Part shown: positions 2,576 through 33,981 of the stretch, piece by piece | Position numbering within the stretch: the stretch's first letter is position 1 | Layout of the letters: each line of letters opens with the position of its first letter | Origin: a virus | Direction: 5' to 3' (one strand) | Virus record (IMG/VR): IMGVR_UViG_3300023174_000386 | Coordinates: 1-35,480 of that record | Length of the DNA stretch: 35,480 nucleotides | Made by a program: the position numbers and the translations under genes | Notes under the pieces: model-generated | The model's input: the letters and a program-made list of their open reading frames with translations, nothing else | Database searches by the model: none | Told to the model about the DNA's origin: nothing

Positions 2576-3277
2576 TTAAAGCGAACAAACCCTACAAGTA
2601 TCTTTGCGCTTGTACTCACGCAACTTACGACCTGCATCAAATTCTTTAGACAACAATTCTAAATTAGCAGGCCAATTGTCTCTGCCTGGGCTTCTAAAAG
2701 TATGCCCAATTTTCTTTTCTAATGCCACACCTTCAGCGTATAAATCAGGATAATTTTTGTACAGATCGCGCCATTCGCCTAGACGTTGATAAGGACATAA
2801 AGCGCAGTCAGTACGTTTTGGTATGCAAATACCTTTTGAGTTTAGATAATCCCAAACGTCTTTCTCATTCCAATTCCACTCACGCATCGGAAAACGAACT
2901 GTAATATCTTCTCCATACAAACCCTTACGTTCCATTTCATCAGCGCGTAAGCCAACGTAAAGCGTAGACCCAGCAGGCAACGATTCAAAGTAATCAAGGG
3001 TTGGCTCAATCTTCAGCCGAATCGTACACCATCTAGCAAATACGTTAGGCAGCATATTAATCTTTTCGATTTCTTCAATCAAACTGCGTGCATGACGAAC
3101 GCGTTGAATTGGCTCACCTAAAATATTTTCTAATTTATCCCAATGCGCTTTCATGTCAGGCAACTCATTACCTGTTTCATTGCATATATAAATGTATTTA
3201 CGCGGCTCAACTTCTGCCAGGCGTAGCGCCAAAGCCGTTGAGTCTTTACCACCACTTAGTCCGACTATGTGTTTCAT
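2576..3277 (-). CDS. PP-loop ATPase, PAPS-reductase/DndC-like
   Basis: A 233-residue member of the adenine-nucleotide alpha-hydrolase (PP-loop) superfamily. SGGKDS at 8-13 is the ATP-pyrophosphate loop, and RWCTIRLKIEP at 82-92 and GLRADE at 109-114 match conserved blocks of CysH/DndC-like proteins. Five cysteines (C84, C158, C161, C228, C231) including two CxxC pairs could hold an iron-sulphur cluster. CysH enzymes reduce PAPS in sulphate assimilation; DndC acts in DNA phosphorothioation. Neither a thioredoxin partner nor other Dnd genes are seen here, so the substrate is open. Its ATG overlaps the polymerase stop by four bases, with GAGGT just upstream, suggesting coupled expression with DNA replication. 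Confidence 0.8.
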   Translation of the reverse strand: MKHIVGLSGGKDSTALALRLAEVEPRKYIYICNETGNELPDMKAHWDKLENILGEPIQRVRHARSLIEEIEKINMLPNVFARWCTIRLKIEPTLDYFESLPAGSTLYVGLRADEMERKGLYGEDITVRFPMREWNWNEKDVWDYLNSKGICIPKRTDCALCPYQRLGEWRDLYKNYPDLYAEGVALEKKIGHTFRSPGRDNWPANLELLSKEFDAGRKLREYKRKDTCRVCSL

Positions 3278-5244
3278 TTTCCGTACCTCGTCATAATATT
3301 AGCCTCAACGTCTAGTGGTAAACCCTCAGCCCATACGGGTGGGGTACACATAACGTCTTTGATTATTTGTACTGCTATTTCGGGTGTTGCTGACTCGACC
3401 ACAATTTCATCATGGACGTGAAGTACCACATCATCCAAGCCTCGCAAAGCGTGTCGCAGTAAGTCATTGGCGACGGCTTGCGTGATGTTTTCACAGGCGA
3501 GTCCTTTCCATAATCTAGCTCTAGGCCACTCTTTAGCGTCTGTGGCTGGTTTCCAACTAGCTTTGGCATAACTGACTCCATCTGTATCTAATCGGGCGAA
3601 TGGATAGCATAACACACGCCCACTTGGAAGTGCATACCACAAATGTTGCCCATCAAATAAATAGGTTACTCGCCCTGCTCTAAACTCATGTCCTTTGTTT
3701 CGCATCGCCCTTGTGTAAGCATTTTCAAGGTCTTGCCAGTACGGCACCGACCACGGGTTCGCTAGACGCCACGCATTAACCATGCGCTTGGCTTCAGGTT
3801 CAGGTAACAAAATACCATACGCTCGACCCATTGCAGCGAACGCGCCAACTCCGCCTGCAAATCCGCACGCTAACTCTTGCACCTTGCCAATCTGTCTCTG
3901 CTCAGATGTAATTTGATCAACAGGCACATGGAACGTCGCACTAGCGTTGACCTTGTAAACATCCTCACCTGTACGGAACAGATCTAGCTTACGAATACCT
4001 GCGGGGCAGTTAGACAACCACGGGTTGACGCGTGCTTCAACGGCTGCCCAATCAGCAACAACTAATGATTTTCCCCGTTGGGGTATGAGGGCAGGTCTAA
4101 GCATTGACTTGAGTACATCGGTAATTCGGCGTCCAAAGGCAGGGACAATTGCGTGGCCTCTAACCATAGCGGATCTAACGGCATCAGGTTCTTTGGCACA
4201 CTTTCGGGTAAAGTTGTGGACTTGCGCTCCGTAACTACTTGCCCTACCTGTGGCTGCGCCACCAGCAAAGACAAATGCTCCACGAACTCGGTTATCTTCT
4301 TCATCAGCCAGATCCTTTAATCTTTTAAATTTTGCGACGCTAGATGCCCATAAGTCGTCCGCGCTTTGGATAACATCTGCAACTTGCGGCGGTATCTCAT
4401 TGGGATTTTCTTCAGAATAAGCAAGTAGATTAGCTCGAACTGTCTTGTCGATTGAATATTTTTTGTCACCATCTTTGTAGTTTTCCATTAACTTCTTGGC
4501 CTGATCGCCAACTCTTGCAAGTACCCACTCGCGCATCCGTGGACTTCTCACGCTTAATATTTCACCATCTGTTAATTCTGCTACTAAATTCTCTATTTCT
4601 ATTAGTTCTACACTCGCATACTTGATAGCTGACTCGGCTAAGGGTTTGTCTAACAATACCCCACGGTCATTAATCTTCTCATTAACATGATAGTCTAACA
4701 GCTCATCATCTGAAAGCTGACGCATAGCTTGACTAATCGCACGCATTGCCCGAACATCCTGCTCGCAATAGGCAACCATTTCAGACATAAGCGTCATGTC
4801 ATTGTTGAACGTACCATCAGCCTTGGGAATAGATAGCAAGCGAATCAATTGATTGCCTCTATGGTCTTTACGCATATTGACACTTGCGAATCTGCCCACG
4901 TCATCAAGCGAGCCTGGCGCGCAGTTGGCACGCGCCTGCGTAGCTGTACAATAGAACTGTTCCGTAGTCGGTTCTGGGATTCCTTTGTCTGGACAGAGGA
5001 CGTACCACATGATCAAGCGCTCGAACGCAGCGTTATGCGCCCGTATTTGACCGCCATCTTTAATGTGTTGAATCACTCTGTCAGGGAACGGTTGATCAGG
5101 TAGCCATGACTGCACTTCCTCATCATCAAACGCATAGGATAAGCAAAGCACCGACGTGCTGGCATCCCTTGCGTAGTTATAGACGCCACGGCTGGGTAGA
5201 TCACAGCGTGAGCGCGTCTCGAAATCAATATATAGGATTGTCAT
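3274..5244 (-). CDS. Family A DNA polymerase with 3'-5' exonuclease
   Basis: Replicative DNA polymerase, 656 residues, of the phage type that lacks the 5'-3' exonuclease domain. Proofreading domain: Exo I with D7 and E9 (YIDFE), Exo II AHNAAFE (69-75), Exo III YCEQDV (159-164, D163). Polymerase domain: motif A VVADWAAVEAR with D398, motif B QRQIGKVQELACGF (449-462) with K454, motif C HVHDEI with D612. All catalytic acids expected for both activities are present. The start is forced: Exo I lies at the N terminus and the frame closes upstream without another ATG. No SD is visible before it; instead an inverted repeat ends six bases upstream of the start codon (see 5251-5319). Confidence 0.95.
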   Translation of the reverse strand: MTILYIDFETRSRCDLPSRGVYNYARDASTSVLCLSYAFDDEEVQSWLPDQPFPDRVIQHIKDGGQIRAHNAAFERLIMWYVLCPDKGIPEPTTEQFYCTATQARANCAPGSLDDVGRFASVNMRKDHRGNQLIRLLSIPKADGTFNNDMTLMSEMVAYCEQDVRAMRAISQAMRQLSDDELLDYHVNEKINDRGVLLDKPLAESAIKYASVELIEIENLVAELTDGEILSVRSPRMREWVLARVGDQAKKLMENYKDGDKKYSIDKTVRANLLAYSEENPNEIPPQVADVIQSADDLWASSVAKFKRLKDLADEEDNRVRGAFVFAGGAATGRASSYGAQVHNFTRKCAKEPDAVRSAMVRGHAIVPAFGRRITDVLKSMLRPALIPQRGKSLVVADWAAVEARVNPWLSNCPAGIRKLDLFRTGEDVYKVNASATFHVPVDQITSEQRQIGKVQELACGFAGGVGAFAAMGRAYGILLPEPEAKRMVNAWRLANPWSVPYWQDLENAYTRAMRNKGHEFRAGRVTYLFDGQHLWYALPSGRVLCYPFARLDTDGVSYAKASWKPATDAKEWPRARLWKGLACENITQAVANDLLRHALRGLDDVVLHVHDEIVVESATPEIAVQIIKDVMCTPPVWAEGLPLDVEANIMTRYGK

Positions 5245-5250
5245 ATTAGG

Positions 5251-29954: not shown

Positions 29955-31481
29955 CTAACTTCCCATCCAAGAATTAGAGACCGCACCTTGATTCTGGTAC
30001 GTATTCTTTCGGATTATACCCTTATATTCCCGATGTGCAACAGGAAATGCGAAAGTCAATGCAATAGCGTCGGCAGCGTCGGGTGACGCTAGTCCTCTTG
30101 ATCTCATGTCTTTCTTCGATTCCAAAAATATGCTTCCCTTGCTATCAGGCTTCATCATGGGCGAGATCAGATCACTTTTCAAGTACCGATCCGTAGGCAC
30201 GCTGGCTGACTTGAGCCATTCTCGCATATCGCCCCACATCTCCGCCCGTTTGTTACCATACATCATGCTGTTCTTTGCTTTGTTCCCGAAGTTAACACCT
30301 TTGATCTTGTACCGTTGCTCTTTTAGTCGATCCACTACACCAGCTCCAAGTCCACCTTCGTCGATGTTGACTAGCGTTGGCTGATATTCCTCGATAGCCT
30401 CGATCACCCGCCCAACTGTTTCCATTGTATCGTCACCCTTGTGCCGCTTGATAGCTATGACATCCCGTCCTTGTCTGACAGCGATGACGGTTGAGTCCGA
30501 CCCAAACCGTGCAGGGTCAACCCCAATGATGATGGGCGCAGTATTGTCTTTGTACTTCTCCCGTTGCATGGCTTCTTCGACTGTGTTGACGCTAATGAAC
30601 TGATCATCGGACGCGTTCGGGAACATACCGTACACTTCGACGTGGGCTTGCACCGAGTCCGAGCCGTACTCAGCGATGATCTGCTCATAGACGTTCTTGT
30701 CTGTACCTTCGACTTGGCGTGAGTCAATGTTGCGGTTTTTCCAAAACTCTCGCTTAGAGTGGAACGCCTCATAGAAATAACCCGAATTCCGTCGTGGGTT
30801 GCTAAACGCCATCCAAAACCTGTTGGGCGTATTCTCTGTAAAAAACCCAGATGTCACCGCCCAAATAGAATCATCAATACCCGATGCCTCATCGAATATA
30901 ACCATTACCCCGTCGTAGTTGTGAACCCCAGCGTAAGCATCAGGATTCTCCGCCGACCACAATCGTCCTTCAACACCCCAGTACCGCGTGCCTTTTTTCA
31001 AATCACGCTCGACTAGCTCAGTCAACCATTTGGCTGGCATTACCCGTGTTGCCGATACCTCAAACCAATGGCTGTTGATGGACATGGATAACCACTTAGT
31101 TATTTCCGCCCAGGTGACGCTGCGGAGCTGGCTTTCCGAGTTAGCCGACACGATGACGGTTGCGCCTATTCTGGTAGATAACATCCAATGTTCTAGCCAT
31201 GAGACTAGCGCTGACTTACCAATTCCACGCCCAGACGCTACCGCTTCTCTTAGCACATCAAAGTCCAGCTTGCCTTGGTTCTGCTTAATATGTTCAGCTA
31301 TGTCCAGTAAGATCTCACGTTGCCACTTGCGTGGCCCTGTGAAATTTTCAAGCGGCGTACCCTGTTGCGCCCACGGATAGCAATACATCACAAACGCTAG
31401 CGGGTTGTCCTTAATCGCAGGACTCCACAGGCGTGACATTAACTCTTGTTCGTCTTGCGCTGAGTAGATGGTAGATTGCAT
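29955..31481 (-). CDS. Terminase large subunit
   Basis: Packaging motor, 508 residues. ATPase domain: Walker A SGRGIGKS (83-90), Walker B VMVIFDEA (192-199) with D197 and E198, coupling motif AFSNP (225-229). Nuclease domain (RNase H-like): D322 in IIIGVDPARFG, D374 in VNIDEGGLG, and D468/D471 in SPDAADAIALTF. All three acidic clusters expected for the metal-dependent nuclease are present. It docks on the portal, cuts the concatemer and pumps DNA. It directly follows the small subunit with no gap. Confidence 0.95.
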   Translation of the reverse strand: MQSTIYSAQDEQELMSRLWSPAIKDNPLAFVMYCYPWAQQGTPLENFTGPRKWQREILLDIAEHIKQNQGKLDFDVLREAVASGRGIGKSALVSWLEHWMLSTRIGATVIVSANSESQLRSVTWAEITKWLSMSINSHWFEVSATRVMPAKWLTELVERDLKKGTRYWGVEGRLWSAENPDAYAGVHNYDGVMVIFDEASGIDDSIWAVTSGFFTENTPNRFWMAFSNPRRNSGYFYEAFHSKREFWKNRNIDSRQVEGTDKNVYEQIIAEYGSDSVQAHVEVYGMFPNASDDQFISVNTVEEAMQREKYKDNTAPIIIGVDPARFGSDSTVIAVRQGRDVIAIKRHKGDDTMETVGRVIEAIEEYQPTLVNIDEGGLGAGVVDRLKEQRYKIKGVNFGNKAKNSMMYGNKRAEMWGDMREWLKSASVPTDRYLKSDLISPMMKPDSKGSIFLESKKDMRSRGLASPDAADAIALTFAFPVAHREYKGIIRKNTYQNQGAVSNSWMGS

Positions 31482-31964
31482 TTATGCGACTTTTTGTTTG
31501 CGTTCGGTGTTAACTGCGGGGTTCACGTGGAACGCTTCTGCGTCGGTTGGTTGGCTTTCCACTTGTTTGAACACGCCTTCGATGACGCGGTGTTGCGCTT
31601 GTTCGAGTGCGGCTGTGATTGAGATGCGCTGCTCAACATCTATCGACAGTTGTTGTTTAGCTACCCAGCCATGCTGGTGCTTGAGGATTTCTAGCGCAGC
31701 TTTAGCGTCGCCATCGGCTGCGGCTTTGTGCAGTATCGCTGATAACTCCATCTCGCCATCGGCTTTGCCTTTTTGTTCAGCGTATTCAGCAATGGGATCT
31801 AGTTGCGTGAGCTGTCGGTATTCGGTAGGGCGCATCCCAGCAGCAAGTGCGAGTGTGTCGCCTTTGAGTCCTAACTTGGCCGCATCGTAGATGCGTTGCA
31901 ATCTAGCCTCGGTAGCCTCTAGCTTGCGTGGCTCATACACATAGGAATGAAAGTTATCAAACAT
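31482..31964 (-). CDS. Terminase small subunit
   Basis: A 160-residue DNA-recognition subunit. Predicted helix-turn-helix-like N-terminal part (AARLGL-type: IYDAAKLGLKGDTLALAAGM, then RPTEYRQL) and the recurring terS pattern LHKAAADGDAKAALEILKHQ followed by HGW. The C-terminal tail is polar. It binds the packaging site and hands DNA to the large subunit. First gene of the late block; a -10-like TATGAT (31976-31981) lies upstream without a good -35, so an additional activator could be needed. Confidence 0.82.
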   Translation of the reverse strand: MFDNFHSYVYEPRKLEATEARLQRIYDAAKLGLKGDTLALAAGMRPTEYRQLTQLDPIAEYAEQKGKADGEMELSAILHKAAADGDAKAALEILKHQHGWVAKQQLSIDVEQRISITAALEQAQHRVIEGVFKQVESQPTDAEAFHVNPAVNTERKQKVA

Positions 31965-32019: not shown

Positions 32020-32230
32020 CCGGCAGCGTGACCGGTCGGTCGCCGGCCCTACCCCCCCCTCAAAAATGGCCGCCGGCCGACCGGCCAGCAGGCCGCCGGC
32101 TAGCAACCGACCGGCCAGCAGCAACCGACCGACCGGCCGCAGCTTGCAGCAGGAAAGCCGGCGGCTGCGGCGGCATGACGTGGGCGTTTTTACCAGGGCG
32201 TTTTATTGGCGGGTAATTGTAAGGCGCCGG
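32020..32230. repeat. GC-rich repeat block in the control region
   Basis: About 210 bases of very GC-rich sequence in an otherwise AT-leaning genome. CCGACCGGCCAGCAG occurs twice at a 30-base period (32077-32091 and 32107-32121), with further CCGACC and GCCGGC words around it. The long plus-strand open frames here have unlikely composition and no SD, so I treat the block as non-coding. Confidence 0.75.
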
Positions 32231-32235
32231 CGGCC

Positions 32236-32568
32236 ATTGTCACATTGTCAAATTGTCACGCCAAAATAATTAGCGCTTAGGTTCTTACTTATAAGTCAAA
32301 TTGTCAAAAGACAATATGACATATAAACTAGTTTAGGGATTTTTGGCGCCGGCATAGGGCGGCCGGAATTATAGGTCAAATACGTCATATTGTCGGCCAT
32401 TTTAAATTGACGCCATAGCAGCCTATATTTATTAAATTTAATCTACTTAAATATATCTAATAAAATGACAATTTGACCTATAAATCTTCCCGCGCGTTAT
32501 GCCAATTGGCCGCGTCAATTGTCATTTATCAATTGTCATTTGACAATTTGAGACAATATTTTGACAAT
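32236..32568. promoter_or_regulatory. ATTGTCA/TGACAAT array, candidate origin or operator region
   Basis: AT-rich sequence with nine exact copies of ATTGTCA or its complement: plus orientation at 32236, 32244, 32252, 32300, 32518, 32532; reverse at 32466, 32541, 32562. Shorter GACAAT or ATTGTC versions are at 32310, 32389 and 32552. The first three lie at an 8-base period. AATTGTCATTTGACAATT (32531-32548) is a near-perfect inverted repeat. TTATAGGTCAAAT (32369-32381) is inverted exactly at 32471-32483, with a variant at 32289-32301. No gene is visible in 31965-32677. Confidence 0.7.
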
Positions 32569-32931: not shown

Positions 32932-33231
32932 ATGCAAATAGATAAAATAATCAGTTTCAATACGGGCCGCCAATACTCTGATAAAGGGCAGCGGATCGCA
33001 GCTGCAATACACAATGGCGTAGTTATCATGGTAGATATTGACCGTGGGATAGATTACGCTTTACCAGCTGCGGCCTTAGATCGTAATTCAATAATGAATG
33101 CTTATGACGATCCCGCCTTGCATACTTACTCTGGCGCAGCATTTGACAATAATTTCCAATTAGAGCGTGAATTTCTTAAAGAATTAGAGGATCACGCCTT
33201 ACTAGCATCGCCTGGCATCTTAAAAGGATAA
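32932..33231 (+). CDS. Hypothetical phage protein (99 aa)
   Basis: A 99-residue protein with SD AAAGGAAAA and the start QIDKIISFNTGRQYSDKGQR, then IAAAIHNGVVIMVDIDRGID, a beta-like pattern that I have seen in small phage and plasmid proteins without a known function. The C-terminal half is polar and helical. Two genes before the clamp-like gene; a link to replication is only positional. Confidence 0.65.
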   Translation: MQIDKIISFNTGRQYSDKGQRIAAAIHNGVVIMVDIDRGIDYALPAAALDRNSIMNAYDDPALHTYSGAAFDNNFQLEREFLKELEDHALLASPGILKG

Positions 33232-33333: not shown

Positions 33334-33981
33334 ATGCAATTCTCAATCAAACAATCGCAGCTTAAGGCCATGCTAAACCTAGCAGCAAAGCAGGATATTA
33401 GATTTTATCTATGTGGCGTATTCGTGGAATTTAATCAAACCACTACTCGCCTGGTCGCAACGTGCGGTCATAAACTAGGTGTTTTAAATCATTCGAGCGA
33501 AGATAACCAGGGCGCAGGATCCTTGATTATTCCAAGGGAAGTAATTGAAAATCTACCAAAGGCCACTAGGTCATTCGATCCTGAATTAATTATCACTAGC
33601 GAAGATAAAGAAGGATTTTGGAAAATAAGCGCAGCGGGTACACAAACAATCTTTGGCCAAATTGACGGTAGATTTCCAGAATATCGCAGGGTTTGTGATT
33701 TTAAAACAAGCGGCGAGGCTGCTAATTTTAATTATGAGTACATGGTCCAATTTTTAAAAGTACAACACGCGCTTGGTGGATCTAAAACGTGTACCGTCAA
33801 TTTATACCAGAACGGCACAAGCGGCGCCCTGGTCACTCTAGCTGGCGTTGATAATTTTGCTGGCGTGATCATGCCAATACGTAGCGACGCAACAAACCAA
33901 GCTGGCGCAACAATGGATAATGAGCTATTAAAGTTATTACCCGATACAAGCGTAGGCGACGCCGCCGCCGTAGCAGCTTAG
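33334..33981 (+). CDS. Shortened beta sliding clamp-like protein
   Basis: A 215-residue DnaN relative. Its first residues align with the start of domain II of E. coli DnaN: QDIRFYLCGV against QDVRYYLNGM, RLVATCGHKLGV against RTVATDGHRLAV, LIIPREVIENL against VIVPRKGVIEL, DGRFPEYRRV against DGRFPDYRRV. After that about 70 residues (first half of domain III) are missing, and the match resumes with FNYEYMVQFL against FNVSYVLDVL and VIMPIR against VVMPMR. All of domain I is absent. The kept segments are those that form the clamp's peptide-binding cleft. An extra 32-residue Ala-rich tail follows. SD AAAGGAAAC supports the start. Ring formation is doubtful; see findings. Confidence 0.85.
   Translation: MQFSIKQSQLKAMLNLAAKQDIRFYLCGVFVEFNQTTTRLVATCGHKLGVLNHSSEDNQGAGSLIIPREVIENLPKATRSFDPELIITSEDKEGFWKISAAGTQTIFGQIDGRFPEYRRVCDFKTSGEAANFNYEYMVQFLKVQHALGGSKTCTVNLYQNGTSGALVTLAGVDNFAGVIMPIRSDATNQAGATMDNELLKLLPDTSVGDAAAVAA

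Follow-up and report, generated by a model that had tools for sequence, protein, structure and literature searches.

A repeated word in the control region of a freshwater phage, a probable replication origin, co-varies with three residues of the phage primase-helicase

Between two divergent operons in the 35.4 kb genome of a freshwater phage, a member of a very common freshwater phage group, lies a dense array of the heptamer ATTGTCA, which raises the question of what the array does and which protein reads it. The window analyzed is the whole virus record IMGVR_UViG_3300023174_000386 (35,480 nucleotides), and because it has a 127-bp direct terminal repeat at the contig ends we take it to be a circularly assembled, complete genome of 35,353 bp. 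The original prediction offered either an iteron-type origin or a multi-site operator; this was the right pair of alternatives, and covariation with the primase-helicase favors the origin. The sites and associated elements are as follows.

32236-32568, both orientations: array of putative initiator sites (proposed replication origin), with nine ATTGTCA cores
32236-32242, 32244-32250 and 32252-32258, + strand: three direct sites with an 8-base period
32300-32306, + strand: ATTGTCA site inside the composite TTATAAGTCAAATTGTCA (32289-32306)
32369-32381, + strand: TTATAGGTCAAAT element, containing the half-site GTCAAAT
32426-32485: candidate DNA-unwinding element, the most AT-rich 60-mer of the genome (87% A+T), between two site blocks
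32466-32472, - strand: ATTGTCA site inside the composite TTATAGGTCAAATTGTCA (32466-32483)
32471-32483, - strand: inverted TTATAGGTCAAAT copy, fused to the 32466 site
32518-32524, + strand: ATTGTCA site
32531-32548: inverted site pair AATTGTCA-TT-TGACAATT (32532-32538, +; 32541-32547, -), with perfect 8-base arms
32562-32568, - strand: ATTGTCA site (AATTGTCAAAAT)
33144-33150, - strand: isolated tenth site within the small-gene operon (TATTGTCAAATG)

The nine exact heptamers within 333 bases (+ strand at 32236, 32244, 32252, 32300, 32518 and 32532; - strand at 32466, 32541 and 32562) all lie where they had been placed originally, and so do three additional hexamers (32310, 32389, 32552), the three heptamers at an 8-base period (32235-32259) and the inverted repeat at 32531-32548. 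The second element of the original prediction was likewise recovered as an inverted pair of TTATAGGTCAAAT, with a third, variant copy, TTATAAGTCAAAT, at 32289-32301; among the classes checked, this element is found only in relatives with an ASADFKS or ASHDYPS sequence in the primase wing described below. A genome-wide count, proposed as a check, gives 15 copies of ATTGTCA in the window against 5.5 +/- 2.4 expected, a number that none of 100 shuffles reaches, and nine of the 15 lie within the 333 bp; 5.5 copies per 35,480 bp correspond to about 0.05 in a segment of that length. We also note a stray GATTGTCATATT site outside the array at 5236-5247, at the 5′ end of the DNA polymerase A gene (3274-5244, - strand).

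The array is flanked by divergent operons, as had been described, and itself also flanks the AT-rich 60-mer; the corresponding regions of relatives are AT-rich too, with a median of 78%. It is thus a compact, non-coding segment with a multi-copy word and an adjacent AT-rich element, as sought in an origin. Leftward lie the terminase genes, and rightward there is a run of small genes followed by the primase-helicase gene, reached across the artificial contig ends. The genes and protein segments that matter here are these.

31482-31964, leftward of the array: small terminase candidate, with the array directly upstream
29955-31481, leftward of the array: large terminase, followed by late genes
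205-2517, - strand: primase-helicase of 770 amino acids and proposed initiator, with a RepB-type primase, a DUF5906/superfamily-3-like helicase and a C-terminal winged-helix-like domain
280-462, - strand: C-terminal winged-helix-like domain, residues about 686-746, from AlphaFold2 models
313-333, - strand: wing loop, residues 729-735 (ASADFKS), proposed specificity determinant

On the circular map the primase-helicase gene is only about 3 kb from the array, and it is read from another operon; the earlier statement that no initiator is encoded nearby is wrong, as this candidate escaped notice only because the ends of the linear window fall between it and the array. A turning point of GC skew, also suggested as a check, is absent at the array; detrended skew reaches its minimum at an operon boundary (7026), and the test is thus uninformative.

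Relatives were collected by a terminase search of viral contigs, which yielded more than 600 candidate stretches; the relatives are metagenome contigs. Among those with a terminase 99–100% identical to that of the window some retain the ATTGTCA array, and many are without the heptamer and carry other repeated words in the same place, such as TTRTCCACA; slightly more distant relatives have TTGTAAG or GTAGTCATG repeated there. In one relative (L153) the DNA flanking the array aligns on either side at about 93%, and that of the array does not align. The place is thus kept while the word changes, and the loss of the motif in relatives sharing the flanking genes, which was to have counted against the original prediction, occurs to the letter, but with another word standing in for the lost one. 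Class words crowd the array region and hardly occur outside it: in 17 relatives of the ATTGTCA class, the class word occurs at 6.3 per kb in the array, as compared to 0.07 per kb in the rest.

Four scans with primase queries gave 227 non-redundant loci that include both the primase C-terminus and the region upstream of the terminase, and these have more than 60 types of the seven-residue wing. De novo motif discovery, with the most enriched 7-mers as its only seeds, yields one word per wing type, for example:

wing ASADFKS (window): ATTGTCAAAT
wing KSREFDT: ATTGTCCACA
wing KSRAHTT: ATGACYCACA
wing ASGDFQS: ATGACCCAAA
wing MSRDYTS: ATGACTAACA
wing ASRAHST: ATTGCCTACA
wing ASREYQT: ATTGCCAACA

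All of the class words fit a single 10-bp frame, A1 T2 N3 N4 N5 C6 N7 A8 N9 A10. Some loci, with the wings ASRTYST, KSRAHDS (L505) and KSRNNDT and including several of the G033 clade, are dominated by a different repeat, CTAAGTTAGTG. The same repeat, or CACTAAC, also appears as a second element beside the wing-dependent words in one clade (G033/G027; L052, L059, L370, L372-L374). The TTATCCACA and TTGTCCACA words of relatives with TTRTCCACA arrays look like DnaA boxes; we rejected that reading since no such words occur in the window and it is the primase wing that the word tracks.

Comparison of the primase-helicases with these words reveals where the correlation lies. Between the ATTGTCA (A) type and the TTRTCCACA (B) type among the closest relatives of the window, only six of 770 residues discriminate fully (729, 731, 734, 735, 747 and 748), four of which are in the wing. 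We scanned 460 variable columns of the protein over 204 loci, regressing motif distance on residue difference with backbone distance removed, and the best columns are 734 (r 0.51), 731 (r 0.49) and 729 (r 0.375), with the next best at 0.20. A family prior had gone into the per-locus motifs, so we reran the scan with raw, seed-free 6-mer spectra, and the same three columns are at the top (734, 0.42; 729, 0.355; 731, 0.203). Loci with equal wings have similar words at any backbone distance (0.14–0.23), and with unequal wings the words differ even under 5% backbone distance (0.27). Residue-by-position effects, computed over 95 clusters, tie individual residues to individual bases: residue 731 corresponds to site position 9 (eta2 0.83), with arginine accompanying a C, glycine an A, and serine mostly a T; residue 729 corresponds to position 7 (eta2 0.55), with lysine accompanying a C; and residue 734 corresponds to positions 3–5 (eta2 up to 0.64, at position 5), with aspartate accompanying TGT and threonine GAC. 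These residues have changed at least 32 (729), 17 (731) and 41 (734) times on the backbone tree, and phylogenetically independent pairs run in the expected direction about 12:0, 14:1 and 16:1; the p-values of these pair tests (about 0.001 or less) are only indicative because the states were chosen after seeing the association. The three residues at the wing tip thus appear, from sequence comparison, to dictate which word is used.

The covariation also bears on two explanations in which another protein reads the array. As the small terminase candidate and the large terminase follow immediately downstream of the array, it might be a packaging (pac) site read by the adjacent small terminase, but the terminase is 99–100% identical among phages with different words, and the small terminase columns explain almost nothing, the best reaching an r of 0.147; we find this explanation barely credible. 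It also seems highly improbable that the array is read by a separate phage repressor or small DNA-binding protein, with the primase co-varying only by linkage. The genes for the 67-residue, sigma-like and zinc-ribbon proteins, which the original prediction named as candidate binders, are indeed located within the operon next to the array or close to it, and the whole stretch from the 3′ end of the primase gene to the small terminase is poorly conserved between types. However, linkage would not pick three codons from 460 columns, nor tie them to particular base positions across far clades; moreover, several relatives with the ATTGTCA array lack the 67-residue and zinc-ribbon genes, and between types the sigma-like protein stays 98% identical, as in G010, whose array differs. 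A stoperator-like array of repressor operators would be expected to have a co-varying phage repressor gene, and none of the small DNA-binding candidates follows the array type.

If the wing sets the word, then the word should be predictable from it. In a leave-clade-out test we trained a wing rule only on loci more than 20% divergent and scored six positions, of which it predicts 82% of the bases, compared to 67% for the majority base and 69% for the nearest neighbor with another wing. Positions 5 and 7 account for the gain; at positions 3–4 the rule does no better than the nearest backbone neighbor, and at position 9 training on far clades gives almost no gain over the majority base because C9 is so common. 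Five new loci fit the rule: a Rhodoferax-MAG contig with wing KSRRHDS (nine copies of TTGTCCACA), an actinobacterial-MAG contig with wing ASRDHTT (ATTGCTTACA), and loci with wings MCREYTA (ATGACTACA), ASGELTS (ATGACCTAAA) and ASAEHST (ATTGCCCAAA). Another locus with wing KSRRHDS (L481) has ATGGTCCACA, which is off by one position. A DNA search of named phages gave MW202483.1 as the sole match, over 12% of the query; this GenBank phage has a 54% identical primase with wing FAPELST and a GTTTACA array in the same place, a word that the wing rule could not predict; this wing is outside the training set. We note also that MW202483.1 has an annotated DnaA-type helix-turn-helix gene near the primase-helicase (31423-31719; L435 7083-7379).

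The predicted structure of the C-terminal part of the primase-helicase places the three residues on a hairpin loop. AlphaFold2 models show two helices followed by a beta-hairpin with a loop at 729–736 (domain pLDDT about 91–94), and residues 729, 731 and 734 are on the tip of this predicted loop. The models thus have a winged-helix topology, in which the wing carries the three residues; the assignment rests on topology because a Foldseek search of the domain against the PDB gave nothing at an E-value of 1e-3, the best match being at 0.024 and the matches mostly MarR-type winged helices. The C-terminal part has no PHROG match at an E-value of 0.1. Upstream of it, the protein matches DUF5906 (E 5e-10), and the helicase part matches NrS-1 polymerase (6k9e/6k9c, E 2.4e-9, profile 460–661), to whose helicase it is homologous on sequence evidence. 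In three relatives (L150, L153 and L156) nucleotide identity to the window falls at primase codons about 661–700 and 721–740, most clearly in L150, with neighboring codons staying higher, a pattern that fits a patchy exchange of this domain.

The relationship to NrS-1 polymerase suggests another possibility, namely that the words are loading or primer start signals on a single-stranded template, like the 8-nt signal of that enzyme, rather than double-stranded iterons. The helicase part is indeed related (6k9c, E 2e-9), and the recognition word of NrS-1, present in two genomic copies, may be the origin there (PMC7102993). This nonetheless seems very unlikely here, as the specificity determinant is in the C-terminal domain and not the primase domain, the words are in both orientations and form inverted pairs, and the window phage has a dense array rather than two words.

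Promoter-like hexamers overlap the array sites more often than in shuffled sequences (10 found versus 2.5 expected), so a regulatory role of the array is also possible. Many replication initiators regulate transcription as well, and the array might simply be an operator from which the primase-helicase C-terminal domain, or some other protein, mainly controls the two divergent promoters with no role in an origin. We consider this improbable: the co-varying protein is a replication enzyme rather than a regulator and its gene is in another operon, and an origin requires just such an AT-rich stretch as lies between the blocks of sites.

Given this base-by-base covariation between the sites and the primase-helicase C-terminal domain, we strongly favor the reading that the array is a replication origin with iteron-type sites bound by the primase-helicase, three wing residues setting the word, with a probability of roughly 85%. 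Direct binding and origin function offer the simplest account of what we observe, namely the array, the replacement of its word by others, the covariation with the wing and the predicted new cases, and we infer the following steps. The primase-helicase would bind the array sites through its C-terminal winged-helix domain, with residue 734 reading positions 3–5, residue 729 positions 6–7 and residue 731 position 9; it would load as a helicase beside the AT-rich stretch that separates the two blocks, and the same protein would open this stretch and prime. Wing and array would be exchanged or mutated together, so that specificity would turn over rapidly and near-identical phages would hold different, matching origin specificities.

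By analogy, the primase-helicase may work like the alpha/ori system of P4 or the Rep/ori system of SaPIs. In P4 alpha, primase and helicase are fused and a C-terminal winged helix binds the ori/crr iterons, an arrangement like that proposed for the window phage, where the winged helix is predicted. P4 is not known to show an allele series, and there is no detectable sequence relation between the two proteins; the origin-binding domain of P4 alpha was not among the 50 best structural matches listed. More generally, the C-terminal domain shows no homology to SaPI Rep or P4 alpha by PHROG (E 0.1) or PDB (E 1e-3) searches. SaPI Rep and SCCmec Cch2 are described as self-loading initiators whose C-terminal domain recognizes iterons (Ubeda et al. 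2007, as described in PMC7581432). They resemble the system proposed for the window phage in having a self-encoded initiator helicase of a mobile element, a C-terminal domain for the short repeats of their own origin, and element-specific Rep-ori pairs. They differ in that the window phage is tailed and has its primase and helicase fused, that its array is 3 kb from the gene rather than directly downstream of it, and that specificity in the window group is narrowed to three wing residues, base by base, over more than 60 alleles.

NrS-1 polymerase (PDB 6k9c/6k9e) is similar in having a related helicase domain in a phage primase-polymerase and sequence-specific initiation, with an 8-nt recognition word in two genome copies (PMC7102993), but structural relatives of its Tail domain are reported to be lacking, and it is not described as having an iteron array. 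In the PLE RepA/ori system, an origin and its matching origin-binding domain have been swapped repeatedly under attack by the ICP1 nuclease Odn (PMC8263062); as in the window group the two co-vary, and in PLE the reason for diversification is shown, but the initiators are of the RepA_N type without primase or helicase, there are few modules, and there is no residue-to-base series. Variable residues in the iteron-related domain of geminivirus Rep have been linked comparatively to iteron bases (Arguello-Astorga and Ruiz-Medrano 2001, cited in PMC10653810), although that domain is N-terminal, belongs to rolling-circle initiators of eukaryotic ssDNA viruses, and is not homologous to the initiator proposed here. 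Self-loading initiators, exchange of origin modules and links between residues and iterons are thus already known; among open-licence papers we found no comparably large allele series in tailed phages with a three-residue wing tracking single bases, and one may be described elsewhere.

An unexplained repeat cluster can in this way be assigned to a proposed initiator-origin pair for a very common freshwater phage group, and more than 60 natural wing alleles with matching words provide rare natural data on how a DNA-binding loop changes its target. It is conceivable, and we offer it tentatively as somewhat short of an even chance, that the wing is a readable protein-DNA code through which origin identity shifts by small steps or by cassette exchange, with selection maintaining the many coexisting alleles as a compatibility system, based on origins, in which it is settled whose initiator can replicate which of several co-infecting near-identical phages or parasites. 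Candidate causes of diversification include interference by co-infecting relatives, parasites that use the origin, and origin-directed nucleases as in PLE/ICP1. The cause becomes testable because A and B types with nearly identical terminases share samples (3300011334 and 3300011339).

Several side observations concern the group and the rest of the genome. Contigs from this group have been assigned to MAGs of Actinobacteria, Mucilaginibacter, Armatimonadetes and Proteobacteria (L436-L442), which is probably mis-binning and a caution for host calls; as these phyla are unrelated, we claim no host. The gene at 33334-33981 has a RusA-like resolvase as its best PHROG match (1e-30) and a DNA polymerase processivity factor as its second (1e-9); because its sequence looks like that of a sliding clamp, the resolvase label may be wrong. 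An imperfect GC-rich tandem repeat, GGCCGACCGGCCAGCA, lies between the small terminase and the array (32075-32121), accompanied by terminator-like stems on the - strand. Finally, an 11-base tandem repeat, CGACCAGCTGC, is present within the terminal repeat in six to seven perfect copies per contig end (35343-35421 and 1-68), which form one array spanning the ends, and together with four copies of a 23-base repeat, TTGCAGGCAAACGCTCCCGTTTT (108-202), it sits between the convergent small-gene and primase operons.
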